A stretch of DNA of 64,000 nucleotides from Auriscalpium vulgare (taxonomy: Eukaryota > Basidiomycota > Agaricomycetes > Russulales > Auriscalpiaceae), in assembly GCA_019915015.1 (NCBI GenBank), contig JAHBBC010000026.1, positions 514,741-578,740 on the forward strand, given 5' to 3'. The notes under the pieces are model-generated. The model was given only the letters and a program-made list of their open reading frames with translations, was not told the origin of the DNA and did not search any database. Of the stretch, positions 28,061 to 50,862 are shown piece after piece. The position numbers were made by a program, and so were the translations under genes. The first letter of the stretch is position 1, and every line of letters begins with the position of its first letter.

Positions 28061-29934
28061 GCATCTGAGATGAAGCAAGGTTTTAGATGTTTCCGAGTGC
28101 ATGGAATAATGCCAGCACGCGTCAGCGCCGGCCGGCCTCTGCGTCAACGATGACGCCACGACGAAGCGCCGCAGGGCCACCCACGGACGACGACGATCGA
28201 CGAGCAGAAAACGCGGGGCGGGGCAAGGCTAGATGCAGATGGCGGGGAGTGCGTCGAGGCGGGAGCGTCGTGCGTGGAAGGACCCTAAGGCACCTCCTTC
28301 GCAGTGAATAGCGCCGGTCGCTGTTGCCGTCATTCTCAACGGCGCCTCTGTCGCCATTCCACCGGCGGGACCGCGCCGCTTCGCCGCTCGCTGTTGCTGT
28401 TCCACCGCGAGCCAGGCTTGGATCGTGCCAGCGCCATCGTCACGTCACTCGCCTAGTCTGCTCGCCTGCAACACGCACTGCCTGTCTATACGTGCGCACC
28501 GGCGAGGCAACCGGGGAGCTTCGAGGCACGTGCTGGCACTTCAAGCCCGCGGACGGTCACCGTCGACCGCGCAACTCGTAGCTGATTCCATGGGCACGCC
28601 GCGGTCTTTCAATTTGTACGGCCTCGTATGGGTATTGCTCGAGTTGCGCCGGGTATCGGGGACAGTTGAGTGGAAGTCCGGGCGCTGACGATGCATGATA
28701 ACCTACAAAAGGGTGAGATGGAATCTAATTTGAACGTGCGGACATACTGATGGCCGTCATACAGCGCACACAGCGCGTTCACTCGCCGCTCCCTTGCCAT
28801 TCCCATTGAAGCGTCGCCACCTTCGAGTCGCGATGATCTGGCGGCCTGCAGCAGTTCTTGTGGCCAGCATCGTACACAACATGGTGGAGGATCGAGGGCG
28901 TGTGACAGGATGGCACCCCGACCGTGTGCTGCACCAGTGCGGTGGAGAAACGCTACGAGGCGTCGGCCTGGGGAGAAGTGAAAGAAGTCCGAGTGGCCGT
29001 CTGAAGTGAGATCTCCATCAGTAGGACAGAAGAGCTGCTAGAGAAGGAGGTGCACATTGAGCCTGTGTACGAGCGTGAGTCGCGCATGGTGGTGAATGTC
29101 ACGGAGCGCACCAAGCTTTTGCCTGCTGGCATTCGCCTTGTTTCCAAACCAGTAGAAGGCGAGGCAGAAGAGGGCCTTGCCGAGCAGGAAGAGCTCGTTC
29201 TTGAACACTGAGAGCGTATTAGAATGGGTGGGCGGGGGAAAACGAGAGACGCACGGGTAGCTGTCCTTGAGCCCGTTGTGGTCTTCAGAGAACAGCGGAC
29301 AGGGATGAGGGCGGCGGGACACGATTGAGAAGATCTGGCCGGCCATGGGAGCTATACTGAGGACGCGCTAGGCGATAGTTTGGGCGTCCATGATGGTAAT
29401 TGGATGGAAGGCGTTCATGCATGACGAGAAACCCAGTGCGCGGATGCTCGCGATTCTCCTGCTCGGGCATGGCGCAAGCGATCCCTGCACCGCAGATTGG
29501 TCCTCGACGGCAACGGCACGCGACGTCACAGTCGTCTGCAAGCACCCGATGTCACGCGCACGCCGGACTGCCCAACTGCATCTTCGGACATGCAGCGCGC
29601 TCAACCCTTCTGGCTATGCGCGTTGTTCCTGACAAATTTAACCGCTCCGCGTGTTCTGCTGCCCTGCGCAGCTCCTCCACTATCGCGTGTTGCGGGTTGT
29701 GCTGGAAGAGGTTTCGCAGGAGAGGTGCGGAGTGAAGAGCAGTTGCCATGTGTCCAGAGCGTGGTCACTGATGTGGAGGCTTGTTGTTTCCGACAAAGTG
29801 CGTCGGTGCAGGCATCGAGGCAATGTGCCGCATCTGCGGGTCTATCTCGAAGGTCATGACCAGCTGAAATGTCATTTCAGACGATCTGCGTGCGCCGCGA
29901 AGGCCAGGGGAAGAAAGTGGGGTGTGCTGGATCT
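28061..29934. other. No confident gene left of the large element
   Basis: Possible minus-strand exons are 29038-29346 (with a hydrophobic stretch NELFLLGKALFCLAFYWFGN after a possible 47-nt intron) and 29552-29749 (LLRNLFQHNPQHAIVEELRR). They may belong to the gene interrupted by the large element, but I could not assemble a continuous model. Confidence 0.35.
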
Positions 29935-30430
29935 CATCAGGAAATTTTACCCATCCTATGTAGATCTATGACACCTGCATAGCACATATAGTAATATAGG
30001 AAGGTCAAGTTCTATGTGGTCCTATGTAGCCACCCCTCCCCACTACACAGCGCTATATAGTGCACAGACCATGCTACATTGTGCTACCACCACTACATAG
30101 CGCAGCCTGCCATCTGTGGTGCTACAGTAGTCACTGTAGTCAACTGTAGCCAACACAGCATGGATTGACTGCATTGCCACCTGTGCCATCATATTCAGTG
30201 TAGGAGGTGTTGGCTACGATGCCACCATAGTAGACATATGCAGTGTTGCTGCTTTACTATGCTATGTGCACACAGTAGGCTGTGTATGCACCAGTGGCTA
30301 CACATGCACTTGCTAACAGCTATGTTCACTATCTTGGCAGCACAAGCTATAATGCTTGCACCAGAAGCTCTGTTGACCATACAGCCTAGGGCACTAGCAT
30401 AGGACCATTCAATATGATCATCCAAATGCA
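29935..30430. repeat. Left terminal and subterminal repeats of the large Plavaka element
   Basis: The block is full of short words such as cctatgtag, ctacatag, ctgtagcc, gctacag and cacagc in both directions, different in texture from the GC-rich flanks and like 50590-50859. Confidence 0.7.
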
Positions 30431-30935
30431 ATAGACATTAAAACCATCTGGCATTGAGTCTATCATAATGAGCCTGTACCTGTACTACTTGGCTGGAGAA
30501 AGAGAAAAGACTGGGATATCAAATGATGGAAGGATAGCCTGGATATGCGACAATATAGGGAATATTAATGGACGAGAGATCACTTAATGAAATAGGAAGC
30601 ACGTAGTGAATGTATCTGGAACATTGAAGAATTAGTCAGGCAAAAAGCTACCTGAGGAAGAGGGACAGACTTGGAGGATCGACGAATGGACGCTCTATCT
30701 TAGGATGATCGAGGCATATTTGATGGGCCAGCCTCTGCGTTGGGAACCGGGGGCTGGCTGGCACCATGATCGGACGAGTCCTTGACATACTCCAACCCAT
30801 CTTCAGTCACGCGTGGCGCGGTCCCGTCGTCTAGGAAGTCATCATCAGAGTCTAAGTCCGCGTTGGTCTGCAACCCAACGGTGGTGCTCAGCCCCGAGAT
30901 GGTCCTGCCCAGCCGTTCAGTAAGCGGCAGTCAAA
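30431..30935. other. No gene seen, inside the large element
   Basis: AT-richer spacer between the subterminal repeats and the DUF6532 stop codon. It probably holds the 3' untranslated region of that gene. Confidence 0.4.
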
Positions 30936-32708
30936 TCAACGGAAGACGTACAGGGCCTCCGACCATATGCGTCGCTGTAATGACGCCAGTGCACCTGGCT
31001 GCATCTTCTTGAACTTCTCGAGAGACGTGAGATGTCGGATGTATACGGTCTGGTAGCTGTCGTGGTTGAATTCGTTGCCCTTGGTGGTTTTGACCCCGGT
31101 CTTCCAGTCGCACAGAGCGCATTCAATCTGCCAGATAGACGGTGAGAGAAGCCTAACGACACAAAGCGCATGATGAAGACAACGCACGGATGTCACCAGG
31201 AGTGCAATGAGATTCAACGACACTGGGTTGAAGCGTGCGGAATAAAGACCAGCTGCATCGGCCTTGCTGTTAGCAAGCCACTGCGCTGCGAATAGGGCGG
31301 GGATGATGGTGTTTCCAAATGGCCCACGTCGCTGGGCTGTAGCTTCAGCAGAGCATGGGATGGTGGAACAATCAGGGCCGCACCTGGTCGAGATTCCGAA
31401 AGTGAAACAAACTCTTCTTCAACAGCTGCTGCACAGCATCCTGCGCGTCGTACTTGGCGTCGACCTGGATGAGGCGGTAGTGCGAGGGAACCAAACTTTG
31501 CGCCTTCGTCTTGACCTGCCCACGAAGCTGCCAGGTGCGCTGGCCGATCTAGAGGGAGACAGCGTTGGACAGCGAGGTGAAAAGGAGAGAAAAACTCGCA
31601 CTATGGACAGCATTGTTTCCCGATACAGCTGGTCCTTATCAAAGCGCGCCCGCCGACGTGGCGCTGAGAGCTCCCGACAGGCCTCGAGGTAGCTAGCCTT
31701 ACTCATCTGCACCGTCTCTGCGTCCTCGGGAAAGCCTTGCTCGTTGGCGACCTTGATCCTCATGTGAATGTTTGCGACCCTGAGGAGGCCTTTCGTTGCC
31801 GGTGACTGCTTTTTCTGCAGCGCCCGAGCAGCGCGTGCTGGATCGTATGGCGTGAAGGGCACTTCCTTCGAAGCTTGCTGGCGGCTTGCGCGAGGCGGCG
31901 TTGACGGCGTTGACATCGGACCAGGGCTGGATGTGCGCGGTGGGCTGGACGACGGCGGCAGGTTGACGTTGCCCGATGGGCTGAGCGAATGCGATGAGTT
32001 GCTCTTGTTCTTGAGGCGCGCGGGAAGCTTGCTGGCGACCGGCTTTGGGGTGCTGAAGCGGATCTACGGAACAAGTTAAGGGCATACTGGGCTGCTGGCA
32101 AGTATGACTGACCTCAGGAATCCTAGCGTCGCGCGGCAGAGGGTCCTTCCTCGCCTTCTTGCTGGCGGCCTGGCGCGAGGGTTGCTCGGCAGCTTCCTCC
32201 TCGTTGTCTCCTGAGTGCTCTGAGCCCGCTACCTACTGGTCAATATTCAACACAGCGTACCAGCGAGAACGGCTTACAATATTCCTTCCTCTTGCGACGC
32301 GCCCGGTATTCCTCGTCCTCAACGACGCTAAAGTCATCCTCGCCTATATCTGCCTGAGCGTCGCGCTGCTCCATGCTTTCAGGCATATCTGCGTCAGCAT
32401 CCTCGTCGTCGTCTTCCTCTTGAGCTTCTGCCGCCTGAAATGCTGCCTCGGCCTCGTTCGATTCCTGTTCGTCCTGCAGCCGATCTTGCTGGCGTTCTAA
32501 CGTTGCAGTTGAAGATGGGCTTGGCGGGACATGCAAGCAACGACGTACGTTTTTTTTTGGCTGCCTTGGCCGCCTTTTGAGCCTTCGCCAACAGATTCCT
32601 GAGTGTCGCTTCGTCCAGCCGGCTGACATCAACCCTGCCGCTCGGCGACGGCGGTTGCTGGTTGCTACGAGTGTTCATGGCGCGTGCAGGCGCAGGGTTG
32701 CGAGCCAT
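30936..32708 (-). CDS. DUF6532-type protein, 485 residues, intact
   Basis: Seven exons keep frame: 32549-32708, 32278-32496, 32113-32228, 31602-32063, 31384-31548, 31188-31331 and 30936-31127. The N-terminal half is low-complexity: a Ser/Pro start, a helical LRNLLAKAQKAAKAAKKK, an acidic EAQEEDDDEDADADM and a Ser/Pro stretch. The C-terminal half reads RETMLSI-IGQRTWQLRGQVK, HYRLIQVDAKYDAQDAVQQL, RRGPFGNTIIPALFAAQW, NPVSLNLIALLVTS, IECALCDWKTG and FNHDSYQTVYIRHLTSLEKF. This order fits the basidiomycete DUF6532 domain (about 190 residues) as I remember it. The role of DUF6532 is not known to me. It is the first cargo gene inside the left end of the large element. An upstream ATG at 32834 is in frame but less likely. 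Confidence 0.8.
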
Positions 32709-33087
32709 GGCGCATGTAGGCGCAGGGTGAAGGACGGCTTGACGTGGCACGGGAGAGAGAAGGGGCGGACGAAGCGGAGGCCAAGCGGGCTCGCGGCAGG
32801 TAAATATGACAGGTCGGGTAACGGTCACATTCAAGACCAGCGATTCAGATTACATACTACGTACAGACAGCAATCACTTGCATCCTCCGACTGCCTTTGA
32901 GGAGACCTGTGACCAAAATGGCACCAAGAAACACGCACGTACGATAACACAGAATTTTTTCACCTCGGGCCAACGCAGCTGAGAGAACCGACATGGAGCG
33001 TTGATGAAGGAGCTAGTGTGCACTGAGTTAGTACACAGGAGCAGAAGACGACTGGGAGGCGTCAGCATGCACGCACCTACGTCTCTA
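32709..33087. promoter_or_regulatory. Gap between the DUF6532 gene and paralogue B
   Basis: Nothing coding recognised. It should hold the DUF6532 promoter and the 3' end of paralogue B, since both are transcribed leftward. Confidence 0.3.
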
Positions 33088-33660
33088 TCACTCCTCGGAG
33101 GACTCCTCCTCATTGATGTCCATCAGCTGGGGGCGTCCCACGCAGTTCAATTCGACTCGATAGCGGGGGCTGTAATTCAAAGTAAGATTAGATGCGGCGT
33201 GTTCGTGTTCACAACTCAAGGCACAAGTTACCCAAGAACAAGCCCACTAAGACGGTCGCCCTTGTCGACAGCCCACTTCAGCTGCCCGGCCGCGTCCGTT
33301 GTGACCTGGAACTTGATCGTCAACTGCTGGGGGCCTGAAGTGCTTGACAGCTTTTTGAGCGTGGTCGGAATGGCTGTGAGGATCTCCAAAACCTCGGCGG
33401 CAATGGACCCGCCGCGGATTTTAGGCTGGCCTGTCGGAGCACAGACGCGGGTGGGGCCTTGGATGACTGGTCGCGCCCAGGATGTTGGTCCAATTGTAGT
33501 GAATGCGAGAACCCCGGACGCATGCAGATCAAGATGAGCCACCTGAAGCGGTGCAAGGCATAAGCAGGCTGCTCAGTTATCAATGGGACCGCCGACGTAC
33601 AAATTGACCTGATCGAGGTATCGTTGCGTAGAAGATTACTTGAGCCTGGGTAACGGTGAC
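33088..33660 (-). CDS. Paralogue B of an unknown tandem pair; start codon not found
   Basis: Exons 33601-33660 (approximate 5' border), 33232-33542 and 33088-33169 join in phase through introns of 58 and 62 nt. The protein reads QAQVIFYATIPRSGQF | VAHLDLHASGVLAFTTIGPT ... EVLEILTAIPTTLKKL ... LTIKFQVTTDAAGQLKWAVD ... GLVLG | PRYRVELNCVGRPQLMDINE. It matches paralogue A along its length, with both introns at the same positions. Where A has ATG before the homologous QSRVLFY, B has no ATG in frame back to a stop-free stretch, so its start may have been lost or lie in another exon. No known domain. Confidence 0.6.
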
Positions 33661-33768
33661 TCGCGGTGCCCCCAAGCGGTCTGCGGTGGTGGCGGGGTAA
33701 GGGGAGAGATGACGACGTGCCAGATGCGGGGTTGGGGCTCTAGATGCAGATGAGCAAAGGAGTGCGAG

Positions 33769-34339
33769 TCAGAGAGAATCTTGGTCGCACTCTGCCCCCA
33801 TCTGCGGCTGCTGAACAACCTTCAGCTGCAGCCTTCCCACCGCATCCAAACCCACTTCGTAATTCGAACTATGATGCAGTGTTCCAGTCAGTAGTGCTGG
33901 CTCACCGTGCAGGACGAGAACGTACCCAAACTTCAAGCCCTCCAGGCCGCCCTCTTCCAGACTGAATTCGATATTCCCATCCGCATCCGCGGTGGCTCGC
34001 ACATTGATCTTGAAATGGTCCTGGTATCCTTGAGCGCTGTCGGAGTTGGGCGGCAGCATCTTGGGGACAGTTGCGAGCATGCGCGCTATCTCTGCTGTGG
34101 CGGAGTGGAAGGTCGCACGGTTGGTGGCCAGGTCTTCAACAATCTCGGGAGGCCAGGCATTCGGCGAGATAGTCGTAAAGCATAAGGCCCCCGACTTGTC
34201 GATGTCGAGGTGCACGACCTTGAGCGATAAGTATCGGGGTTAAGTCAGCGCGCGCCGTGATCGACAGAGATCGGCGACGTACGAAACGCCCAGAACCAGG
34301 CACCGTCATATAGAAGAGAACCCGCGATTGCGAATGCAT
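33769..34339 (-). CDS. Paralogue A of an unknown tandem pair, 149 residues, intact
   Basis: Exons 34283-34339, 33926-34218 and 33869 down to 33769 (33769-33868) join in phase through introns of 64 and 57 nt. The protein starts MHSQSRVLFYMTVPGSGRF and continues VVHLDIDKSGALCFTTISPN, AEIARMLATVPKMLPP, FKINVRATADADGNIEFSLE, GLKFG | SNYEVGLDAVGRLQLKVV. Alternating hydrophobic residues suggest a beta-rich fold with a helix in the middle. No family recognised. The second intron uses a gtacgt donor; a later gtgagc is an alternative, but the paralogue supports the first. Confidence 0.75.
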
Positions 34340-34866
34340 TGTGCTGTCGACGACACGCAGATGGGCGGATGGGACTCAAGGGTTGGGATGCAAAGCGATG
34401 ATGGGGGATGGGGGGCAGGGGGCAGCAAGAAGCGGTCTCCGTTGCTGCGTCTTAAGTACAGGGCCCTAGAAATAGAATAAGTAATGGACCTGCCCCCTTA
34501 GAGAGCTAAGGTTCAACGAGGCGCTGGGGACTCTGAGGTAACGCGGAGCTGAGGGAGCGGGCGGCGATGAGAGAGCCGGCAGCGATGAGAGAGCGCGCCG
34601 ACGACGCGAGACAATCTAACATTGTAAGTACTGTATACTGGGCTCTCTGTTTGCGCTACCAGCGACTTTGCTGCGGAAGACGGTGAGCATTGTGCTGATT
34701 TACTGAGCACGAGGCGCACGAGGCAGCCAGCAGGCAGGCTGCAGGCAGGGCAGCGAGCAAACACGCGACACTGCGCAAGAATCAGATAAGAGGCGCAGCA
34801 CCTCGGCTCACCCTCCCCAGCTTCCTCACCTCTCCCACACCTCTTCAATCAGCGCGTTCGTGCACA
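34340..34866. promoter_or_regulatory. Divergent intergenic region between paralogue A and the 34867 gene
   Basis: The two flanking genes are transcribed away from each other, so this 527-bp stretch should hold both promoters. It contains short repeats around gcgatgagagagc (34563-34598). No element was assigned. Confidence 0.4.
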
Positions 34867-35764
34867 ATGGCAACTGGGGTAAGCTATTGACCTCAGCGCC
34901 GTTGTTGCGACTGCTGATCGGCGCTCTACAGGATACCTTGCAAGACGTGAATGTTGTCGTTGCAGGACACGGCACGGTGGACGTCGTTTTTAGGCCGGCA
35001 GACTTGGGAGCGGGCACGGTGCGTCCTTGCAGCTTCTTAGCATCCACGAGCTCTCGCTGATAGACGTCGTTGCTGCTTGTAGCACATCAGATTCCTTTCG
35101 ATTCCTCACGATGGTCCCAACCCCGCGCCCGCGCGCGATGGCCAACCCGCCATGCGTGCTATGCCCACTGAAGTGCGCGAAATCACCTCCAGCCGCCACA
35201 CACTCGCTCCTGCTGCAGACCCTCCTCCTGCCGCCAGCGGCAGCCCTGCGCTGCTGGGCCAACCTATCGTGAACGCCCCGGCTCCCATCATCCACTGCGC
35301 CCCGCCGTCTCTGCGAGTCGCCAGCCCTGGGCACTCTCCCATAGACGTCGATCGTGCCGACTCCCCTGGATTGCAGGCGCACCATGAGGGCCAAGAGTCA
35401 GACAAAGCAGAAGCCTCGGAGCACGACAATTCGGGGCACGACAGCGACATCCCTCTTGACGACGACCCCAGCATGATGTTGCTCACGATGTCGCAGATGG
35501 CGCAGATGGGGGTGCACGGCTTGTCGGACAGCGAGGTGGCCAGGTTGGGGCTCCCGCCCGGGATCTACGTGGATTTCTCGGAACAGCCTAACTTTGACGG
35601 CGGCGAGTCTAGCGCCAGGTAAGTGCCGTGCGTTTGCTTAGGAATTCACTAATGCAATCCAATCTAGCGACGCCCATCTGCCGCCGTCGCAAGCGAACGC
35701 TGCGCGTGCGTCCCCCGTCAAAAAGCGGGCTGGTCGCAGGGTCCGCAATCCGAGGGGGGTCTGA
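34867..35764 (+). CDS. Unknown cargo protein, about 243-246 residues
   Basis: Four exons keep frame: 34867-34878 (MATG), 34932-35018, 35083-35618 and 35668-35764. The N-terminus reads DTLQDVNVVVAGHGTVDVVF and HIRFLSIPHDGPNP. The middle is Ala/Pro-rich, followed by an acidic stretch (EHDNSGHDSDIPLDDDPSM) and MSQMAQMGVHGLSDSEVARL, which is probably helical. The C-terminus is basic (SPVKKRAGRRVRNPRG), resembling a nuclear localisation signal. No domain recognised. For exon 3 the acceptor gcttgtag is required by phase; a later cag at 35090 would run into a stop. It lies 670 bp upstream of the TET/JBP-like gene, in the same direction. Confidence 0.65.
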
Positions 35765-36433
35765 GGAGCGGGGGAAGCGGCCCTCATAGCTAGGCACTTT
35801 TGCGACTCTGTGTAGATAACAATGCTTGAATTACTTGTCTTTGAATCGTCAACGCGGGTGCAGAGATCTCAGGGCAACATGGTCACCAAGCGCCCAAGTT
35901 GACGTTTGATGCGTTGAACGCAAAGTCCGCGCCCGCCACACTCTCTTTCTTCGCCGCCGCCGCACACTCTCTTTCTTCGCCGCCTCCCACCACAGTTGGA
36001 GCCCTCCCGCCGCAAATTCGACGCGTTGCACGCCTTGCTTGTTGCGTTTAGCGCGTCGCTTTGCTTCCCTGCGAGCTTTTGGTGAGCTTCTTCATTTGCC
36101 TGCGCGTCTTGCACGGAATCGCTCCCGGCTCCTCTCGATGCAAAGGCACCCTCAGTGTTCCCAATGCTGACGAGCCTTATTGCCAGCTTCTTTGCGCGTC
36201 ACTTGATTTGCCTATTCGGTGAGCTTCTTCATTTGCCCGCGCGTCTTGCACGGAATCGCTCCCGGCTCCTCTCGATGCAAAGGCCTCCTCGCTGTTCCCA
36301 ATGCTGACGAGCCTCATTCCTAGCTTGGTGCAATAGCAGTCAGTGCCTCCGATCCTATCCTGGTGAGTCTTCTATTGTGCGCCTGCTTGACAGCACACTC
36401 ATGCTTTCTACCGCTTGTGCCAGCTGGCGTGCC
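35765..36433 (+). repeat. Leader region of the dioxygenase gene with a 137-bp tandem duplication
   Basis: ggtgagcttcttcatttgcc...gcacggaatcgctcccggct and its continuation cctctcgatgcaaagg and ttcccaatgctgacgagcc occur at 36081-36190 and 36218-36330. Each copy starts with a donor-like gtgagc and ends near an acceptor-like tag or cag, so each could be a leader intron. 35765-36080 shows nothing coding. Confidence 0.65.
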
Positions 36434-38286
36434 ATGCCTCCGCTCTTCAAAACGGTGAGCACTGATCGATGCATTTGTATTCCCGCGCTGACTGTCTGCT
36501 CATGTCTGCCCGTAGCTCCGCTCTCAGAAGCGGTATTCGCCGTACGCCCGCAGCCTGCTCAAGGATGCACTCGCTGCATACTCGGAGGCCGACTTCGACC
36601 TGGAAGCTGCCCTGCGGGCATCCATGGATGACTTCAACGCTGCTCTCCAGCAAGAACAGCAAGATGCTGCTCCATTGCCTGCGAATGCACCCGCCAGGCC
36701 CCCTTCCCCTTCGTTCAAGCAAGGCCAGCAAGGCGCTCATGCCAGCGCGCCGCCCGCCCACGCACCCGCCAGCGGCGCTTCCTGCCCTCAGCAGCCTCCA
36801 GCCCCCGACAACCATGCACCCCGAGCCCTGCCTCGCCCTTCCCCTGCAGAACGATGGCCGGGAGAGCGCACCCAGCATGCCCGCGATCGAATCCGCCGCC
36901 TCAACAAACGGCGCAAGGCGGCGGCTGACGCTCCGCACGGGCTGCCGCCTGTCACTCCTCGAATTCAGGAGGCGTTCAAGAAGCAGCCCACTCTGTCCAC
37001 TCCGTATAACGCCCTCAACTTTCCAGTGGCACGCGGAGCTCATATTGTGCAACGGGGCGTTCATCCCTCCGCTGAACCGTTCGTCAACAAGAAGAAGCCA
37101 TGGCTAAGCAAGGAGATCCCACTAGCAACATTTGTGGACGACCTCCGCTTTCAAGTCAAAAAATGGGACGGCAGGTGCGTGCATAGTGAGCTCGGCGAGC
37201 CCAGTGCGCTGATATCCCCTTGCTGTAGCCATTGCGAGTCCGTCTTGGATAGAAAGGGCCGCGTGCTGGCACAACTAGCTGCCCCGCCCCGCCGCGATGC
37301 ATCTTGGGAGAGCGTCCCCCAGTCTGTGAGCGCAGAGATGCAGGATGTCGCCAAGGCCTGCCCCTTCTCCCCGGGACAGCAAGCACACACCCGCGGGCGG
37401 TACCCCTTGCTGTCTGCAGGCTACATGCACGGCGGAGGACCAAAGGTGCGTGCGCAATCTACTCTTGTGGCATTGCTGGGCTCATTTATTCCACAGATGC
37501 CTTATAACATCTCGTACGACAACAGCGAGCAGGCGGCAGCAGCGCAGAGGCTTTTGAGCCACGAAGGGGTGCGGAGGCTCGCAGGGCTGGGCAGCGGTGC
37601 GTCGTTTGGTCGCCATCTTGTCTTCCACATAGCTAATTTTGCCCATGCCAGGCGTCTACCACACCTTCTCCAACAGCGCTTTTGAGCGCTGCGCGGGGGC
37701 GCTCGACGACGTTGTGGCTCACCAGCCATTCCTGAGGAAGCCCTTCGTCAACAGCATCTTTCCCGCAGTCACATTCAACTTTGGGCCGCGCGCACTCACC
37801 GTCCCTCACCGCGACTCCCAAAACGTGCCGTATGGCTGGTGCGCTGTGACCGCACTCGGCGACTTTGACTACCATCTCGGAGGACACCTTGTGCTGTGGG
37901 ACCTGGCGCTGGTTATCGAGTTTCCGCCCGGCTCCACCATCCTCATCCCTTCCGCCCTCATAACCCACAGCAACGTGGCTATCCAGCCTGGCGAAACTCG
38001 GCAGTCCATGACGCAATGGTGTGCTGGGGCCCTGATGCGATGGCAGGTCTACGGCTGTCGCACCGAGAAGACTATGCGGAAGGAGGATCGCTCCCTCGCG
38101 GAATCGTTTGACGCCGCTGCTTCAACCAGCTGGGACACCGCTGCGGCTTATTTGCCCACCTGGAGCGGCGAGCTGCCGGAGTTTGTGCAGGGTTCGTCTT
38201 CCGATGGTGGGCCTTCGTCAGATGCACAGGAGGGCTCGAATGTCAACAACGAGGCCTCCGAGTCACCAGCTGGATCCTGTGCATAG
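36434..38286 (+). CDS. TET/JBP-like 2-oxoglutarate Fe(II) dioxygenase, 543 residues, intact
   Basis: Five exons keep frame: 36434-36454, 36516-37174, 37229-37445, 37497-37596 and 37652-38286. The N-terminal 190 residues are Ala/Pro/Gln-rich with a basic ARDRIRRLNKRRKAA patch. The C-terminal domain has AGYMHGGGPK, NSIFPAVTFNFGPR, HRDSQNVPYGWCAVTALGDF (H385 and D387 as the HxD pair), GGHLVLWDLALVIEFPPGST, ALITHSN (H438) and ETRQSMTQW (R449). This is the iron- and 2-oxoglutarate-binding layout of the dioxygenase fold. The wording FNFGPR..T.PHRD...GWCAVTALG.FD is one I associate with TET/JBP-like proteins expanded in basidiomycetes, some of which oxidise 5-methylcytosine. Activity on DNA is inference. 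The stop codon lies 15 bp before the gypsy LTR, so the 3' untranslated region now comes from the LTR. Confidence 0.75.
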
Positions 38287-38301
38287 GGATAGGGCGAGCG
38301 C

Positions 38302-39458
38302 TGATACGCCCCCAGCGCGGGTGGCTTCTGTTTTCGCATTTTTGGCACGTTCTATCGCCTCAACATCGACTATCGCAACACATCGCGCTCGCAGTTCCAG
38401 CCAAGACGCTAGCACACTTGTAGCAACACGGGCCTATACTCCTTGACGTCTCCATCGATTCTCTACCATCCAGGCCACGCAGGATGATTGCACAAGTCCC
38501 CAAGTCATGTGTACACGCCCACCAAGTCACCAAGACGTTCTGAGCCAGCCATTAGCATTCTGTGCGCACGTCGCAATGTCTCGCGCATACATCCACATGT
38601 TGCCCTCGCCTCCCACCTCGTTCCCAGAGCGTCCTAGCGTTGCGCAGCCCCTCGACACGTCACCCACAGGTCCCAGGGTCCGGTCTAGATGCAGTGTCTC
38701 AGAGCAATGTTCCGGTTTGATGGTTTCCGATACGTCGCGATCCGCATATCTCGGAGTTTCACATGGAGATAGCACAGCCTTGCTGTTCCGATACGTCGCG
38801 ATGCTTGTTTCTGATTGGATACGCCTTCTAGAATGTCTCACTATCCCCATACTTACCAGATGACTCACAGTAGCCACAGAGACATGTTTCCCGTGTATAT
38901 CTGTTGGTAGCTAGGTCACTGAATATCAGACAACTTCTCCCCTCCAGAGTCAACGTCTCAAACCTTTGCAACATCGTTTTATCGCGTTCAACATCGACCT
39001 CGACCTTCAACTTCGCAGCGCCCAAGATTATAGCCTTCACCTTCGCAGAGCCCACGTTTACAAGCCTTCAACTTCGCAGAGCACATTGTTTTCACCTCGT
39101 CCAGCGTTATCGCGTTACGTCGCGACCTTCGTATCACCTTGTCCCCTTGTCCCCTCATCCTCGCCTTTGCTCCCCCATCGTCTCAGCCCTCCAGCAAGGT
39201 ATTCTCAAGCTCGCTACACATCGCAACGTCCTGTTCCGCACCAGCAGTGTCGACTTCCATCCCAGATCACCTTGTCCATCGTCCTATCGCCCTCCAAGTC
39301 ACCTAGCGACTTCCCCCCAGCGTTCACGCCTCTCCCCGAGTCATCTGTAGGTCCTGGGACGCGCCCCCAACCTGTTACTAGCACCGCTCGAGCCAGCAGG
39401 AGTTGGTTTTGTGGTTTGTTTTGCCATCTGACCGCCTGTGCGCCGAGATAGGTCATCA
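38302..39458 (+). repeat. 5' LTR of the gypsy element
   Basis: 1157 bp, TG...CA ends, direct copy of 46017-47173 (offset 7715). Open frames inside it (38507-38863, 38904-39350 and others) appear identically in the other LTR and are not genes. Confidence 0.95.
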
Positions 39459-42119: not shown

Positions 42120-45100
42120 TTATCTAGAAGATGGTGAAGAAGTCGCCCTCATCTTGGAAGGCGACGGCGCGAGTGTTCGCGCACTTGCTTATACCCCTCT
42201 TGACCCTTCAGACGAATCCTCGCTCCAGTTTGCTTATTTAACCGCCTCCGACGCTCGTTCTTTGCTTCCCAACCACGCCGCTCCAGCAGCTTTTACAGTT
42301 TTGACTTCAACGTTCGCTCCAAATCCCGCCTCAACGCAATCCACACTCTTTTCTACCTTTGCCTCAGACCTTCGTCCATTGCCTTTGCCAGAGAATCAGA
42401 TACCCCCAGTTCGCGAAACGTTTGCGAAGCGCAAGTACAAGCCCGTTGCCCAGAAAGTCAAGCCTGTGCTAGGCTCAGTCCCAGAACAGTTCCGCATAGT
42501 TCGCAACATACAGGGAGATCCCCTTGCATCGCTCCCTATGCTCCCTACGCATCCCCCGCCCTTTGTACCCACCGGACGCTACACGCAAGAACGCAAAGAC
42601 ACTGTTGATAGCCAAGAGTGCTACAATTTCCTTCAGCCAGCCGAACGAGACCTATTGCACCACGTCATTTCAGTTCACAACGACGCTTTCGCTTGGAATG
42701 ACTCAGAGCGAGGCAGTTTCAAGCGCGAGTTCTTTCCTCCAGTCCAAATCCCTGTCGTTCCGCATACACCTTGGGTACAGCGCAATATTCCGATCCCACC
42801 AGGTCTTTACAAAGAAGTCACAGACCTCATTCGTCGCAAGATTCATGCAGGCACATATGAAGACTCGAATTCATCGTATCGTTCGCGTTGGTTCTGCGTC
42901 GCGAAGAAAGATGGCAAGTCGCTACGCATTGTTCACAGTCTTGAGCCCCTCAACGCCGTCACTATCGCACATTCCGGAGTCACACCCACGCCAGAGCACC
43001 TTGCAGAACAGTTCGGAGGCCGCGCATGCGGTGGAATACTCGATCTCTACGTTGGCTATGACGAACGCCTCATTGACGAACACTCGCGAGATCTCACTAC
43101 GTTCCAGACGCCCTTTGGAGCCAAGCGCCTTGTCACCCTACCCATGGGATGGACGAACTCAGTTCCTATCTTCCATGACGACGTCACGTACATCCTCCAG
43201 CCTGAGATACCAGCGATTACAGTCCCCTACATCGACGATGTCCCACTCAAAGGTCCCGCATCCGAGTATCTTGACGAATATGGCAAGCCCGAGCACATCG
43301 CGAACAATCGCAACATCCGCCGTTTTGTCTGGGAGCACTTCCAGAATGTCAACCGTATCTTGCAGCGCATGAAGTATTGTGGTGGCACATTCTCTGGCAC
43401 CAAGTCTATCATTATCAGTCGCGAGTTCACCGTTCTTGGCCATCGTTGCACCCCAGAAGGTCGACGTCCTGACGAGTCCACTGTCTCAGTTATCCGCAAC
43501 TGGGGCCCCTGCAAAGATGTCTCTGACGTTCGTGCATTCCTTGGTACCATTGGAGTCTGCCGCATTTTCATCGACTCGTTCGCGAAACGTGCCCACGTCT
43601 TGACACAGCTTACTCGCAAAGGTGTCCCATTCGAGTTCGGACCAGAACATATTGCCGCTCAAGAAGACCTTAAAGTAGCCTTGCTCGCCTCGCCAGCGCT
43701 CCGTGCCATCAACTATGAATCACCCGACCCAGTTGTCTTAGCTGTTGACTCCTCGTACATTGCAATAGGCTATATCTTAGCGCAAGACGTCGCGACCCCC
43801 AAGAAGACGCTCCGCTATATCAATCGCTTTGGTTCTATCACGCTCAACGACCGCGAACGACGCTTCTCCCAGCCTAAGCTTGAGATTTACGGCCTTTTCC
43901 GTGCACTACGCACACTCCGCATCTATCTACTTGGCGTTCGCAACCTAGTTGTTGAAGTAGACGCTAGCGCTATCAAAGGAATGCTCAAGAACCCGGATCT
44001 CGTCCCTAGTGCAAGTATCAATCGATGGATTCTAGGCATCCTCATCTTCCATTTCAAGCTTCGCCACGTTCCAGGGGTTCGCCATGGACCAGACGGGCTT
44101 TCGCGACATAGACAAGAAGGTGAAGATACCCCAGCAGAGACAGAACAAGATGACAGTTATGACGATTGGCTTGATAACATGCATGGATTCCTTCACATTG
44201 TCTACCCTTCGCCTTCTGCGTTTCGTTCCCACATCCTAGCTGTGCCCACCCACCCTCCCTGCTTCGCGACCTATGCCCTGACCGAGGACGGTCAAGACTT
44301 CAGTAAGGAGGAGGAGGAGCCCAAGCTCTGTTATGACGATGTGCCACGTTCCGACTCAGCTAGAACCCACGACCTTCGCATTCAAGCAGTCCACAATTGG
44401 TTAAGGAAACCAGAACGCCCAGAAGACTTGTCAGATTCTGAGTTCGCGACCTTTGTCCGCTATGCGACGCGCTTCTTTATCGACAAGACAAGACTTTGGC
44501 GACGCAGTCTTGATGGCGCACACAAGCTTGTGATACAACCAGCTCAACGACTTCAAGTTCTTGCAGAATGTCATGATCGTGTTGGACATCGCGGAGTTTT
44601 TGCTACAAGATCGCTTATTCAAGAACGTTTTTGGTGGCCAGCTTCCGAAGCGGATGCCATGTGGTATGTCCGCAGCTGTCTCATCTGTCAGCAGCGTCAG
44701 AAGCGTCAAGTTCTCATCCCCCCGGTTGTTGCGACACCCGCTGCGCTCTTCGCGAAGATCTACGTTGACACAATGCATATGCCAGTCTCTAACGGCTTTC
44801 GCTATATTGTTCAAGGACGCTGTTCACTCACCCAGTACCCCGAGTTTCGACTCCTACGCCGTGAGACAGCCAAGGCCATTGCAGATTGGGTCTTTGAAGA
44901 TATCCTTTGTCGTTGGGGTTCATTAAGCGAAATCGTCACAGACAACGGAGGCCCATTTGTCAAGGCACTTGACTATCTGTCCAAGAAGTACAACATTCGC
45001 CATATTCGCATCAGTGGTTACAATTCGCGAGCCAACGGCATCGTTGAGCGTGCACACTTTGACGTTCGTCAAGCATTGTTCAAGGCCTGCGATGGAGAAC

Positions 45101-45768
45101 AGAGTCGCTGGTCTATGTCTGCGCACACAGTCTTTTGGTCCGAGCGCCTTACTACAAGACGCCGCATGGGTTGCTCGCCCTACTTTGCAGTCACAGGTTG
45201 TCATCCGCTCATTCCCCTTGACATATCCGAAGCAACGTACCTCTTGCCGCCGCCCACGTCCATTCTTTCGACCACAGACCTCATTGCACGACGCGCCATA
45301 GCCCTCCAGAAGCGACACGAGCACATTTCACACCTGCGTTCCAAGGTTTTTGCACATCGTCTAGCAGCAGCAGAGCGCTTTGAGCGTGACCACGCAGCGA
45401 CCATTCGCGACTTTGATTTCAAGCGTGGAGACCTTGTATTGATCCGCCACACCGCTATCGAGAAGTCGCTAAACCGCAAGATGCGCCCTCGCTATCTAGG
45501 CCCCCTTGTTGTTGTATCGCGAAACCGCGGAGGCGCCTACCTTGTTGCAGAACTAGATGGTTCCGTCTTTGATCGACCCATTGCCGCCTTCAGAGTCATC
45601 CCCTTCTTTGCGCGAAAGCGAATTGAAGTGGACTTAGATGCCATTGATATTGACACTACTCGACTTCGCGAACTAGAAGCTTCCCAGTCCTTAGGAGACG
45701 ATGACAGCTTAGAAGACATGCCAATAGCCGATGAAGACGACATGGATGGTCCCCCAGATGGCTCCTGA
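42118..45768 (+). CDS. pol: Pol polyprotein: reverse transcriptase, RNase H, integrase
   Basis: The frame is open from before 41950, but homology starts near the Gag stop, so pol is probably made by a +1 shift there. Reverse transcriptase: SRWFCVAKKDGKSLRIVHSL, LPMGWTNS and the catalytic YIDD (43228-43239). RNase H: VVLAVDSSYIAIGYIL, then LEIYGLFRALRTL and VEVDASAIKGML. Integrase: a CHDRVGH...CLICQQ zinc-binding start, then DTMHM, VTDNGGPF and NGIVERAHFD giving the D, D, E triad. The tail has RYLGPLVVVSRNRGGAYLVA, the GPY/F-like end. There are no internal stops over about 1215 codons, so it looks functional. Confidence 0.92.
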   Translation, partial: DYLEDGEEVALILEGDGASVRALAYTPLDPSDESSLQFAYLTASDARSLLPNHAAPAAFTVLTSTFAPNPASTQSTLFSTFASDLRPLPLPENQIPPVRETFAKRKYKPVAQKVKPVLGSVPEQFRIVRNIQGDPLASLPMLPTHPPPFVPTGRYTQERKDTVDSQECYNFLQPAERDLLHHVISVHNDAFAWNDSERGSFKREFFPPVQIPVVPHTPWVQRNIPIPPGLYKEVTDLIRRKIHAGTYEDSNSSYRSRWFCVAKKDGKSLRIVHSLEPLNAVTIAHSGVTPTPEHLAEQFGGRACGGILDLYVGYDERLIDEHSRDLTTFQTPFGAKRLVTLPMGWTNSVPIFHDDVTYILQPEIPAITVPYIDDVPLKGPASEYLDEYGKPEHIANNRNIRRFVWEHFQNVNRILQRMKYCGGTFSGTKSIIISREFTVLGHRCTPEGRRPDESTVSVIRNWGPCKDVSDVRAFLGTIGVCRIFIDSFAKRAHVLTQLTRKGVPFEFGPEHIAAQEDLKVALLASPALRAINYESPDPVVLAVDSSYIAIGYILAQDVATPKKTLRYINRFGSITLNDRERRFSQPKLEIYGLFRALRTLRIYLLGVRNLVVEVDASAIKGMLKNPDLVPSASINRWILGILIFHFKLRHVPGVRHGPDGLSRHRQEGEDTPAETEQDDSYDDWLDNMHGFLHIVYPSPSAFRSHILAVPTHPPCFATYALTEDGQDFSKEEEEPKLCYDDVPRSDSARTHDLRIQAVHNWLRKPERPEDLSDSEFATFVRYATRFFIDKTRLWRRSLDGAHKLVIQPAQRLQVLAECHDRVGHRGVFATRSLIQERFWWPASEADAMWYVRSCLICQQRQKRQVLIPPVVATPAALFAKIYVDTMHMPVSNGFRYIVQGRCSLTQYPEFRLLRRETAKAIADWVFEDILCRWGSLSEIVTDNGGPFVKALDYLSKKYNIRHIRISGYNSRANGIVERAHFDVRQALFKACDGEQSRWSMSAHTVFWSERLTTRRRMGCSPYFAVTGCHPLIPLDISEATYLLPPPTSILSTTDLIARRAIALQKRHEHISHLRSKVFAHRLAAAERFERDHAATIRDFDFKRGDLVLIRHTAIEKSLNRKMRPRYLGPLVVVSRNRGGAYLVAELDGSVFDRPIAAFRVIPFFARKRIEVDLDAIDIDTTRLRELEASQSLGDDDSLEDMPIADEDDMDGPPDGS
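44278..44314 (+). promoter_or_regulatory. Internal copy of the polypurine-tract region (possible central PPT)
   Basis: These 37 bases inside pol match the 37 bases before the 3' LTR (45980-46016) at 34 positions, including aaggaggagg. Confidence 0.6.
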
Positions 45769-46003
45769 CTCCTTTGTTTTGTTTCTCTTTCCAGCATGCT
45801 ACGCATGGTTTCCCTTGTGTTTGTTTAAGTTTTGTTTCCCTTTTGCCCATGCCATTTACAGAGACCAAGAAGGGACATTCAAGTTCGCTATATGCTTCAC
45901 TCTTCCATTTCTGTATCCTTCCGTTCCCACCCACCGCAGCCCCCAGCACTCCTTTGCCGACCCGTATTCAACGCACGCGCTGACCGAGGACGGTCAGATC
46001 TTC

Positions 46004-46016
46004 AGTAAGGAGGAGG
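46004..46016 (+). promoter_or_regulatory. Polypurine tract before the 3' LTR
   Basis: agtaaggaggagg directly precedes TGATACGCCC of the 3' LTR, the position expected for plus-strand priming. Confidence 0.85.
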
Positions 46017-47173
46017 TGATACGCCCCCAGCGCGGGTGGCTTCTGTTTTCGCATTTTTGGCACGTTCTATCGCCTCAACATCGACTATCGCAACACATCG
46101 CGCTCGCAGTTCCAGCCAAGACGCTAGCACACTTGTAGCAACACGGGCCTATACTCCTTGACGTCTCCATCGATTCTCTACCATCCAGGCCACGCAGGAT
46201 GATTGCACAAGTCCCCAAGTCATGTGTACACGCCCACCAAGTCACCAAGACGTTCTGAGCCAGCCATTAGCATTCTGTGCGCACGTCGCAATGTCTCGCG
46301 CATACATCCACATGTTGCCCTCGCCTCCCACCTCGTTCCCAGAGCGTCCTAGCGTTGCGCAGCCCCTCGACACGTCACCCACAGGTCCCAGGGTCCGGTC
46401 TAGATGCAGTGTCTCAGAGCAATGTTCCGGTTTGATGGTTTCCGATACGTCGCGATCCGCATATCTCGGAGTTTCACATGGAGATAGCACAGCCTTGCTG
46501 TTCCGATACGTCGCGATGCTTGTTTCTGATTGGATACGCCTTCTAGAATGTCTCACTATCCCCATACTTACCAGATGACTCACAGTAGCCACAGAGACAT
46601 GTTTCCCGTGTATATCTGTTGGTAGCTAGGTCACTGAATATCAGACAACTTCTCCCCTCCAGAGTCAACGTCTCAAACCTTTGCAACATCGTTTTATCGC
46701 GTTCAACATCGACCTCGACCTTCAACTTCGCAGCGCCCAAGATTATAGCCTTCACCTTCGCAGAGCCCACGTTTACAAGCCTTCAACTTCGCAGAGCACA
46801 TTGTTTTCACCTCGTCCAGCGTTATCGCGTTACGTCGCGACCTTCGTATCACCTTGTCCCCTTGTCCCCTCATCCTCGCCTTTGCTCCCCCATCGTCTCA
46901 GCCCTCCAGCAAGGTATTCTCAAGCTCGCTACACATCGCAACGTCCTGTTCCGCACCAGCAGTGTCGACTTCCATCCCAGATCACCTTGTCCATCGTCCT
47001 ATCGCCCTCCAAGTCACCTAGCGACTTCCCCCCAGCGTTCACGCCTCTCCCCGAGTCATCTGTAGGTCCTGGGACGCGCCCCCAACCTGTTACTAGCACC
47101 GCTCGAGCCAGCAGGAGTTGGTTTTGTGGTTTGTTTTGCCATCTGACCGCCTGTGCGCCGAGATAGGTCATCA
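46017..47173 (+). repeat. 3' LTR of the gypsy element
   Basis: 1157 bp, direct copy of 38302-39458. The host sequence resumes with GCGC at 47174. Confidence 0.95.
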
Positions 47174-47375
47174 GCGCAGTGCATATCAATTAGCTACCTG
47201 CTATTTAGTTTATACCCCAAATTGCAAAATGGAACGGCCAACGCTTTGTCGAGCAAGATGGGATACGATACTTTTTGCCTGAGACACCAAACAGAGACGG
47301 GCCGCGTCGCCGAGCCCGCGACGCACTACTTGCTGCCTCCTACGCTTTCCGTCATTCCTACACTTTGTTTCCGTT

Positions 47376-50300
47376 ATGATCTTTCCATGCAAAAGCTGCG
47401 GGGCTAGTTTTGGTAGCAGCGGGGCTCGCAAAAGCCATGTCAAGCAGTCAAAACAGTGCAATTGGATGGTCAACGAGCTACAGAGTCTGCCTGCGTCAAG
47501 GCAGGTTGATTACATGGATCCAAGCGATGGCGAGTCGGACCCCGAGCAGGAAGACGATAGCAATGTCTTTCAAGAACTTGACGACTTCGACAACACCGGG
47601 GCTAGCAGTCGCCCTGCCTCACCACCATCCCCTCCTCGAACCCCATCCCCAACTCCGACTCAGCCCGGCTCATCCAGTGCCTCTCAGCGAGCGCAGGCTG
47701 AGGACGATCTCGAGACAGAGCCAGCTGTTGTGGACGTGTATCCTGGAGCGGGTCGAGTGCTCTCTGTCGATGCCAAGAAGGAGGACGAGTATCGAAGACG
47801 CGTGGCAGCTGCAGATGCCAACGCCAATCCCTACCATCCCTTCCGCAGCCGCTTGGACTGGGAGGTGGCAAAGTGGGCTAAAAGCCAGGGCCCGACGCAA
47901 ACCGCGTTTTCAAAACTCCTCGACATCGACGGGGTGCGTCACATCATCTCTTCTCCTTTGCTCTTGTCTGAAATCCTATGCACCAGGTCCATGAGCGACT
48001 TGAACTCTCCTACAAGGATTCTCGCTCATTGAATCAGCTCATTGATAGCATTCCCGCCCCTGCAAAATGGCACAAGACGGAGCTGAAAATTGGCGAAGAC
48101 GACGAGGCCTATTCCCTGGTATATCGGGACCCGCTTGAATGCATCCGCTCACTCTATGGCAACGTCGCGTTCGTGGACAGCATGTCATACGCACCTCGGC
48201 GGGAGTATTCAGGCGCGACTCGCGAGGAGGAGGAGAGGCTGTACAACGAGATGTGTACGGGCGACTGGTGGCATGAGACGCAGGTGCGTCCTTGGTGCAT
48301 TTCATCCCGGCCCATAACTAATTGTATCAATCAGGCGAAGCTCCCGGGCGGCGCGACTGTGGTTCCGGTGGTCTTCAGCTCAGACAAGACGCTGCTGACA
48401 AACTTCAGTGGTGATGGCTCGGCATATCCGCTGTACCTCACCATTGGCAACATTGACAAGGACGTCCGTCGCAAGCCTTCGAATCACGCCCACATGCTCG
48501 TTGGCTACCTCCCTACACCCGACCTCAGCCACCTCTCCAAGATCGTCGCAAGCACAGTTCGCGCAAGGATCTACCACGCGGCAATGAAGATGATTGTGCA
48601 GAGCCTGGAGGCCGCCGGCCGAACGGGGGTTCAGCTCGTCGGGGGCGATGGAGCCATCCGACTCTGCTTCCCCATCCTTGCCTGCTATGTGGCCGACTTT
48701 CCAGAGCAGGCCCTCGTTGCATGCACCCGGGGCAGTCGATGCCCAAAGTGCGAGCTGCGTCGCGGTGGCTTTGGCGACCATAAACATGGATCGCCAGCGC
48801 GGCAGCAAGGGTCAACCATTCGCATTATCCGACGCGCTGCGAATGAGCCCACAGCCGCGAAGCAAGAGGATATGCTGAAGGAGGCTGGTCTCATCAACGT
48901 CACCCATCCTTTCTGGGCCAACCTTCCTCACTGCAACATACACGACACGATCACCCCCGACATCCTGCACCAGCTTTACCAAGGCATGATCAAGCATCTG
49001 CTGGGCTGGCTCTCCAACCTGATGGGCGAGGCCGAGCTCGACGCCCGGTTTCGAAGGCTTCCTGAGGCACACGGCATACGCAGGTTCCTGAACGGGATCA
49101 GCGGACTCTCGCGCGTCACCGGTGGTGAGCATAAAGAGATCTGCAAGCAGATCTTGGGGTGTTTGTTGGGGAAGGCGCCTGCGGGGGCAATTCGCGCGGC
49201 GCGTGGCCTGCTCGACTTCCTCTACATTGCCCGCTATCGCAGTCACACCGGGCAAACCATCGGGTACTTGCGAGACGCCCTGGACCTGTTCCACAGAAAC
49301 AAGAAAATATTCCTGAAGATGTCCGCCAGAGTGGGCGCGGGTGCGTTGCTCTCTATGCTATCAAGTATCCCTTTACTGATTCTGGCACACACGATAGGCG
49401 ACGGCTTCGACATCCCCAAGCTGGAGTCCCTGCAGCACTATATTCCTTCGATCTGCGCGATAGGCACGACAGACAATTGCGACACAGAAACGACGGAGCG
49501 CCTGCACATTGACTTCGCAAAGGTAGCTTATCGGGCTTCAAACAAGCGGGAGTACCTCGACCAGATGATACTCTGGCTGGAACGCAAGGAGAAGGTGGTT
49601 GCGCTGGCTGCGCAAATAGCGTGGCGATCTGGAGAGCGCCAGTCCAAGACGGCACGACGTGCTCGGGTAGCACCCTCATTGTCTTTCCCATCTGCTGCAT
49701 CGACATCAAATACAGCCGCGGCCACCCCATCCCTATATACGACGGCATCCAAAACTGATGGTCGCATCAAACTGGCCAAAACACCCGCTGTCGCATCGGT
49801 GCCCTTCGTCCAGCTCGAACAGGCGTATGGTGCGCGGGATTTCATCCCTGCCTTGCAAGCCTTTCTCAGCGAACACATCGGTGATCGCCCCAGGCGGAGC
49901 GATCGCGCACTGCCCCTGCTATTCAACTCAGTGGACGTCTGGCACAAGATCAAATTCGTCCTTCCAAATCTGCAGCTTGACGAGCTTGCCGACACAACCA
50001 ACACTGTGACAGCCAAGCCACCGACAGGAGATAACCCCGGGAGATTCGACACTGTCATCATCGATGAGGACGATAGCGTGGTCGAGCGAACGGGGGTAAA
50101 AGGTGAGCATAACGTGATCAACGTGGCAGCAATGACGCGCTAACAATACAGTAGGCCAGCGCATCGGCCGTCTGCGAGTCATATTCAAGCTACCGTGGTC
50201 CGTCAACGAAGAGCTATTCAAATCCAAGGGCGTCGATCCTCCAGGCCATCTGGTGTTTGTCGAATGGTTCTCAAGGCCCACAGAAAAGGACGGCGATACC

Positions 50301-50516
50301 GATATGTTCAAAATTTCCAAGAGCAAGAAGTCAAATGGAAAAGGATTGGTCTCGTCTGTTATCGAGGTAGAGTCCGTTCGTCGTGGATGTCATCTGATCC
50401 CTAGGTTTGGAGCTCATGCAGATAGAGCTTGGAAGTCTTCAAATGTGCTTGATCGATGTGACACATTTTTGTTGAATAACTATGCAGATCAGCATTCATT
50501 TCAATCTATTTGGTAG
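47376..50516 (+). CDS. Plavaka transposase, 976 residues, intact
   Basis: Five exons keep frame: 47376-47933, 47987-48283, 48335-49340, 49398-50102 and 50152-50516. The N-terminus is a zinc-finger-like MIFPCKSCGASFGSSGARKS followed by H and C at finger spacing, then an acidic/Pro linker and YHPFRSRLDWEVAKWAKSQG. The core has NFSGDGSAYPLYLTIGNIDK, AHMLVGYLPTPDL, VGGDGAIRLCFPILACYVAD, CPKCELRRG, IHDTITPDILHQLYQGMIKH, TTDNCDTETTERLHIDFAK and QMILWLERKEKV. The C-terminus is FVEWFS...MFKISKSK and SNVLDRCDTFLLN. This order matches Plavaka, a CACTA-related group known from basidiomycetes. It would cut the element at its ends. Start ATG lies 202 bp after the gypsy LTR, so its promoter is short or altered by the insertion. 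Confidence 0.92.
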
Positions 50517-50519
50517 CAG

Positions 50520-50859
50520 CTTGGTCAATCAAATATATTTGCTGTACTGTCCATCTTATTTCTGAGGGTCACAAAGGGCTGTGATATCTAAGTATCAGCT
50601 GGACTCTGTAGGGGGTTGTAGTATACATAGCAGAGTATGTTGGCTGTGTAGATAACATAGCTCATGTAGCAGAGTATGTGGGCTGTGTAGCTGCTGTAGC
50701 AAACTTATGCTGCTCTATAGGACTACCATAGTGGGCTGTGGAGGCTGCATAGTACACATTGCAGATGTTGACATAGTGGCACTACATAGATAGGCCTTCA
50801 TGCACTATAGCCTACACATATTTGTGCTGGAGCTATGTAGGAAAAGATTTTTCCTGATG
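50520..50859. repeat. Right subterminal and terminal repeats of the large Plavaka element
   Basis: Words such as gctgtgtag, catgtagcagagtatg, actacatag and gctatgtagg recur, mirroring the left end. tgttggctgtgtag and gtgggctgtgtagc are direct repeats within it. It ends cctgatg at 50859, followed by TCT. Confidence 0.75.
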
Positions 50860-50862
50860 TCT

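Follow-up and report, generated by a model that had tools for sequence, protein, structure and literature searches.

The stretch of DNA analyzed here (the window) comprises 64,000 nucleotides of the Auriscalpium vulgare genome (C26:514741-578740, in a genome of 51.6 Mb and 96 contigs, designated C26, C25, C8, and so on) and contains a transposon bounded by short inverted ends, with a Plavaka transposase gene, a DUF6532 gene, and a gene for a TET/JBP-like dioxygenase between them. It is likely that the element is a PlavakaB-group transposon, probably autonomous, whose core consists of the transposase, a divergently transcribed DUF6532 gene, and the dioxygenase, working in the manner proposed below. 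A first-pass annotation of the sequence had described an element of about 12 kb, enlarged to 20.9 kb by a nested gypsy retrotransposon, with inverted ends, TCT on both flanks, motif-rich subterminal blocks, and a complete Plavaka transposase near the right end. All of these features were found at the positions claimed (Table 1).

From the left, the gene order is DUF6532 (minus strand), an unknown tandem pair (minus), a small open reading frame (ORF; plus), the TET-like gene (plus), and the transposase (plus). The transposase domain PF18759 scored 358 bits (cutoff, 26.3), the main frame of 723 residues was free of stops in all four copies of the element, and the motifs C(2)C and H(3-4)H were present as sequence (CPKC at 438 and HCNIH at 501). 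One frame of the DUF6532 gene matched Pfam PF20149 with 70.8 bits (curated cutoff, 24); its product was 67% identical to A. vulgare protein P0184, and a sequence search of the PDB gave no match. The annotation had counted five genes besides the transposase, at least four of them apparently intact. The DUF6532 and TET-like genes have open models, and the tandem pair consists of two genuine paralogous reading frames, the first of which had no Pfam match at E ≤ 1. The annotation's "unknown protein," the small ORF at 35083-35622, turned out to be a weak gene call with no Pfam match.

Table 1. Features of the window, copies of the element, and TET/Plavaka protein pairs
Feature	Position	Strand	Details
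Left target-site duplication, TCT	29932..29934	.	Read in sequence
Left terminal inverted repeat, CATCAGGAAA	29935..29944	+	C25b identity begins at 29935, C8 identity at 29934
DUF6532 gene	30936..32708	-	7 exons, 485 aa; hand-made model, open
Unknown tandem pair, second member	33088..33572	-	Approximate limits; intron inside
Unknown tandem pair, first member	33769..34239	-	Reading frame of 156 aa
Segment common to seven other loci at 99%	34785..35861 (1,077 bp)	+	Holds ORF 35083-35622
TET/JBP-like 2-oxoglutarate (2OG)-Fe(II) dioxygenase gene	36434..38286	+	5 exons, 543 aa; hand-made open model
TET-like exons	36434-36454, 36516-37174, 37229-37445, 37497-37596, 37652-38286	+	
Gypsy long terminal repeat (LTR) retrotransposon, nested	38302..47173	+	LTRs 38302-39458 and 46017-47173
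Plavaka transposase gene	47376..50516	+	3 exons, 1011 aa, open; PF18759 + PF20722
Transposase exons	47376-47933, 47987-50102, 50155-50516	+	
Right terminal inverted repeat (CATCAGGAAA inverted)	50850..50859	-	Copy identity stops at 50859
Right target-site duplication, TCT	50860..50862	.	Read in sequence
Copy 1, window	29935..50859 (20,925 bp)		Holds gypsy; duplication TCT
Copy 2, C25a	C25:410660-431582 (20,923 bp)		No duplication
Copy 3, C25b	C25:581421-593468 (12,048 bp)	-	Gypsy-free; duplication GGG
Copy 4, C8	C8:126878-138426 (11,549 bp)		Gypsy-free; duplication GT
P0001/P0116	A. vulgare		TET/Plavaka pair; locus tags 4 apart
P0002/P0130	A. vulgare		TET/Plavaka pair; locus tags 3 apart
P0011/P0169	Artomyces pyxidatus		TET/Plavaka pair; locus tags 19 apart

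Copies of the element and its nested gypsy

The motif CTATGTAG/CTACATAG occurred five times in the terminal 600 and 400 bp of the element and not once in the remaining 63 kb of the window; the sites on the left side were within ~600 bp after CATCAGGAAA. A search of the genome with the terminal sequences, which the first-pass annotation had proposed, gave four matches to the first 500 bp and four to the last 400 bp at 100% (rounded) identity (the numbers of matches found by search tools, for ends and genes alike, are lower bounds throughout). These matches paired into four copies sharing both ends, 99.86 to 99.99% identical to the window over the aligned pieces, and the full-length form without the gypsy is the C25b copy.

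An empty site was found for the C8 copy. Its 33-base insertion site occurred uninterrupted at 61 other places, 48 of them exact, which indicates that a single GT was duplicated when the element inserted on C8. By eye, the translation of the C8 flank resembled a stretch of the reading frame of the window's gypsy, and the exact C8 target site was absent from that gypsy. The repeat at the 61 places (for example, C1:585140, C2:1245949, and C9:398415) was apparently another gypsy family, and the C8 element had inserted at its integrase-like site.

The sequence flanking C25a corresponds to that of C25b on the left and to that of the window copy on the right; the right-hand match extends for 13.1 kb and includes 12 gaps and no mismatches. 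Because it has no target-site duplication and carries the flanks of two other copies, it was regarded as a recombinant or an assembly join, and three independent insertions were counted. The chances are about even that C25:410660-431582 is an assembly join and no real fourth copy, which would be compatible with the reading proposed here. Contigs C25 and C26 terminate 19.6 and 13.1 kb beyond their copies, which speaks for a join, but the supposedly equal left flanks carry unmatched stretches of ~3.4 and ~9 kb, which would be unexpected for a plain duplicate, and genuine recombination between copies would give the same picture. The four copies stand for three independent insertions, an empty site being known for one, and show, as the annotation had inferred, that the whole block moves as one unit. 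A deletion has removed 494 bp (33402-33895 of the window) across the tandem pair in the C8 copy and possibly arose between the two paralogues.

The two LTRs of the gypsy, 1,157 bp each, are identical and are flanked by a GCGC duplication (38298-38301 and 47174-47177), and the empty site was seen in the C25b and C8 copies. The gypsy occupies the short gap between the TET-like gene and the transposase and is a recent, ordinary nested insertion, later than and unrelated to the element. Disruption of the TET-like gene by the gypsy was considered and rejected, as the gypsy lies 15 bp past the TET stop codon.

The GC content of the window outside the element was 56.4%. At the start of contig C26 (positions 1-210) there were 21 tandem copies of CTTACTTTAG, a unit unlike TTAGGG-type telomere repeats. 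This array, which may be telomere-like or subtelomeric, was present in none of the other sequenced loci compared.

Companion genes at other Plavaka loci

In order to evaluate the recurrence of the gene set, the genome was queried with the transposase, a TET exon, and the DUF6532 family (at least 105, 105, and 77 matches, respectively), and the matches were merged by hand into 51 Plavaka, 103 TET-like, and 48 DUF6532 loci. Recurrence was judged from match positions for most families and from both sequenced ends for two. Within 12 kb of the 51 Plavaka loci, a TET-like gene was present at 30, DUF6532 at 32, and both at 20, compared to ~2.4 and ~1.1 expected for TET-like and DUF6532 genes under random placement. 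When near-identical copies were collapsed to 40 Plavaka loci, a TET/JBP-like gene was near 22, DUF6532 near 27, and both near 16. The collapsed count used 60 of the 103 TET positions, measured start to start within 12.5 kb, with yes-answers pooled within each collapsed family; none of the 43 positions left out was nearest to any Plavaka locus. A single TET and a single DUF6532 gene are common to loci C38:186661 and C38:198192, as is a single DUF6532 gene to loci C18:829596 and C18:836465.

The arrangement of DUF6532 also recurred. The nearest DUF6532 gene within 20 kb was upstream of and divergent from the Plavaka transposase in 35 of 39 cases (copies uncollapsed), and 30 of the 48 DUF6532 loci had a Plavaka transposase no more than 12 kb away. 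To control for repeat-rich regions, the same distance was applied to loci of KDZ transposases (107 of at least 168 matches, second pieces of one gene having been dropped): DUF6532 was present at only 5 of the 107, with ~2.4 expected. KDZ itself was within 12 kb at 4 of the 51 Plavaka loci (~2.5 expected). Many KDZ loci (C9:883392, C25:164850, C2:2088198, and others) had their own, more distant TET-like gene, with a KDZ-TET spacing that was often 2.1 to 2.4 or 6.4 to 6.7 kb.

A second bounded family held the same three genes within its ends, in the order DUF6532 (minus), transposase (plus), and TET (plus). Its four copies (C8, C22, C51, and C52) begin at the same base, with 25-bp inverted ends, (C)ATCTGGAAACC..., and lengths of 15,785 (C8), 15,877 (C22), and 15,781 bp (C52). 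If the ends are read as CATCTGG..CCAGATG, the duplications are GT in C22 and TT in C52. The closest single relative, on C17 near 905 to 918.6 kb, held each of the three genes, and one of its ends resembled the left end in the window; on its other side was, by eye, an apparent hAT transposase fragment.

The remaining cargo behaved differently. With one member of the tandem pair as the query, the only relative among the matches listed outside the window family was at C4:377449-378425, away from detected Plavaka. The 1,077-bp segment with the small ORF recurred on C2, C13, C42, C51, and C56 (two loci) and at C26:19276. A TET-like gene was ~15 to 16 kb away at five of these seven loci (15 and 30 kb on C42), one of the five has Plavaka fragments, and no transposase was detected within 12 kb of any of the seven. 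Thus, the "defined gene set" of the first-pass annotation was supported in part: TET-like and DUF6532 genes are recurrent companions of the transposase, and the other members look like added cargo.

Protein searches in other assemblies covered TET, the transposase, and DUF6532, with 120 of 1292 Plavaka proteins listed. Among the proteins listed, TET and Plavaka were on apparently one contig for 3 of 12 Auriscalpium and Artomyces TETs (Table 1), and the sole DUF6532 match, P0184, was apparently on the same contig as Plavaka protein P0066 of A. vulgare. The A. vulgare protein pairs may stem from the same species as the window or a sister species; one TET locus had 98% identity to a protein of A. 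vulgare, and for six others the best matches had 72 to 86%.

Class and history of the TET-like gene

A fold search placed the TET-like protein nearest to CcTET, NgTET, and TET2, which identifies its fold as TET type. A profile of the family searched against PDB sequences gave only chance-level matches and did not recover CcTET at E ≤ 10. The iron triad and the 2OG-binding arginine (H159, D161, H212, and R223 in P0001 numbering) were invariant in an alignment of 36 rows, comprising the window exon and 35 rows chosen from 63 matches. The HxE of PE-type TETs was not present; the window protein has HRD, and D161 is among the invariant residues. At the AG-type positions (G or S at CcTET 331 and D at 337) N and C were found, as located by spacing rather than by a structure-based alignment. 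The family is under purifying selection.

With a line at 49% identity to the window's TET, set after the list had been inspected, the nearest transposase was Plavaka for 27, KDZ for 3, and neither for 17 of the 47 TETs at or above it (103 in all), and Plavaka for 2, KDZ for 25, and neither for 29 of the 56 below it. A first tree was built from chosen rows (15 of 29 Plavaka-labeled TETs plus L045, which is KDZ-labeled, 6 of 28 KDZ-labeled TETs, and 12 public sequences, the last entered with gap signs). In it, a single branch (88/91; 200 of 200 bootstrap trees) set the 16 Plavaka-linked TETs apart, with one label change. In a second tree the labels strictly followed the nearest transposase and three of four omitted exceptions were added (L074 was dropped, having no usable frame). 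A clade at 88/90 then held 15 Plavaka and 3 KDZ rows, and a clade at 99/97 held 5 KDZ rows and 1 Plavaka row. One KDZ-labeled exception was nearly identical to a Plavaka-linked TET, and its Plavaka relative was 25 kb away. The exceptions are read here mainly as chance neighbors, though transfer between lineages is possible. The A. vulgare and Artomyces TET proteins fell within the mostly Plavaka clade. As judged from these sequences, the Plavaka-linked TETs appear to be mostly one clade, with exceptions.

Proposed mechanism, alternatives, and known systems

Both companion genes seem to belong to the working equipment of the transposon and not to be stray passengers. As the copies and the empty site show, the transposase moves the block between the CATCAGGAAA ends and leaves target duplications of 2 to 3 bp. 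The dioxygenase most likely oxidizes methylated bases on the DNA of the element and would thereby counter silencing, as its fold, its active-site residues, and the purifying selection suggest. Plant CACTA elements encode a second protein, TNPA, and the conserved position of the DUF6532 gene suggests that its product is most likely a comparable second transposition protein or a regulatory protein. The tandem pair and the small ORF would be additional cargo, and the gypsy a later, unrelated insertion.

A number of observations weigh against this proposal. Neither companion was found at 7 of the 40 collapsed Plavaka loci, and 18 of the 40 had no TET within 12.5 kb (fragments included in both counts). 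KDZ was the nearest transposase for 28 of the 103 TET-like loci. Target duplications in the second family fit only two of its four copies, C8 and C51 being the others. The structure model of the DUF6532 protein was uninterpretable (pLDDT, 47.5; 7-row alignment), and the Tet_JBP profile of Pfam, with a cutoff of 34.9 bits, gave only 14.1 bits for the window exon and 15.7 for P0001.

Passive cargo, with TET and DUF6532 captured repeatedly as Plavaka picks up genes in repeat-rich regions, would account for the tandem pair and the small ORF, which resemble passengers, and for the position and orientation of TET relative to the transposase, which differ between families. It could also explain why the second TET tree needs five label changes rather than one, a result that 16 to 20 of 500 shuffles equaled. 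However, these changes are due to four deliberately added exceptions (three KDZ-near TETs among the Plavaka-linked ones and one Plavaka-near TET among the KDZ-linked ones), placed as chance neighbors would be, and both the purifying selection on TET and the divergent placement of DUF6532 in most cases speak against passengers. Thus, passive capture seems unlikely. It is very improbable that DUF6532 and TET-like genes are host families that merely share repeat-rich compartments with Plavaka; 18 of 48 DUF6532 and 72 of 103 TET-like loci had no detected Plavaka within 12 kb, but both genes lie inside precise ends in two families, and KDZ loci showed little association with DUF6532.

A transposon with two working companions therefore remains the preferred reading, and a broader proposal can be put forward tentatively, as one that is somewhat more apt to fail than to hold. 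Plavaka in Russulales, and perhaps in mushrooms widely, may be by origin a three-component system of transposase, divergent DUF6532 partner, and resident de-silencing TET, in which DUF6532 would be needed for transposition or regulate it and TET would represent a class of DNA-base dioxygenases outside the published PU, AG, and PE types. If so, the DUF6532 family of mushrooms, now annotated as hypothetical proteins, would be largely transposon machinery. The copies within each of the two bounded Plavaka families are nearly identical and have therefore probably moved recently, and they carry a TET-like gene whose family is under purifying selection; the idea of a transposon-borne de-silencing enzyme can thus be tested directly. 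DUF6532, until now a family without an assigned function, gains a concrete context in the Plavaka neighborhood.

Starships are cargo-carrying giant fungal transposons. The window element likewise has multiple genes and cargo; it differs in its Plavaka transposase, inverted ends, and 12-kb length (no search for a captain was made). With CACTA/EnSpm elements, as described in the main text of PMC12730594, the element shares the C(2)C and H(3)H motifs, CA..TG ends, and short duplications, but its ends, CATCAGGAAA with CATCA, are not the CACTA or CAC..GTG termini of canonical members. Like the TET-positive Kyakuja (KDZ) elements of Agaricomycetes, the only TET-positive elements reported there for Russulales (PMC12730594), it has a TET/JBP-like gene in or near a DNA transposon; the transposase family is different, and most sampled KDZ-linked TETs group apart from the Plavaka-linked ones.

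In the literature searched, which did not include the supplements of PMC12730594 or Iyer et al. (2014), neither DUF6532 as a Plavaka companion, a TET-positive Plavaka from Russulales, nor an HxD-type TET in Plavaka was found. The main text of PMC12730594 names no third protein for Plavaka (supplements outside the search) and says that Iyer et al. (2014) imply a Plavaka-TET link in five species. For two Ganoderma species, PMC8955403 gives KDZ, Plavaka, and DUF6532 side by side in a list of additional domains.

The closest known system is PlavakaB, with CATCA..TGATG termini and 2- to 3-bp target duplications (Kojima 2025, PMC12730594). The ends, duplications, and transposase of the window element match these published features, and the element thus fits PlavakaB. 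TET-positive PlavakaB has been described from two Agaricales species, Agaricus bisporus and Gymnopus confluens, and PE-type (HxE) TETs come from transposons of A. bisporus, Laccaria, and Gymnopus (PMC12730594). The first-pass annotation had regarded the unit as not described, but TET-bearing PlavakaB with such ends is therefore already in print. The window element shares with it the Plavaka transposase, the termini, the short duplications, and a TET/JBP-like dioxygenase within the ends. It differs in its host, Auriscalpium of the Russulales, and in a TET with HxD in place of HxE and, by spacing, N and C where CcTET has G331 and D337. The element is a well-supported variation on a published transposon type, with one new component that can be tested, DUF6532 as a companion, and does not represent a new kind of element.

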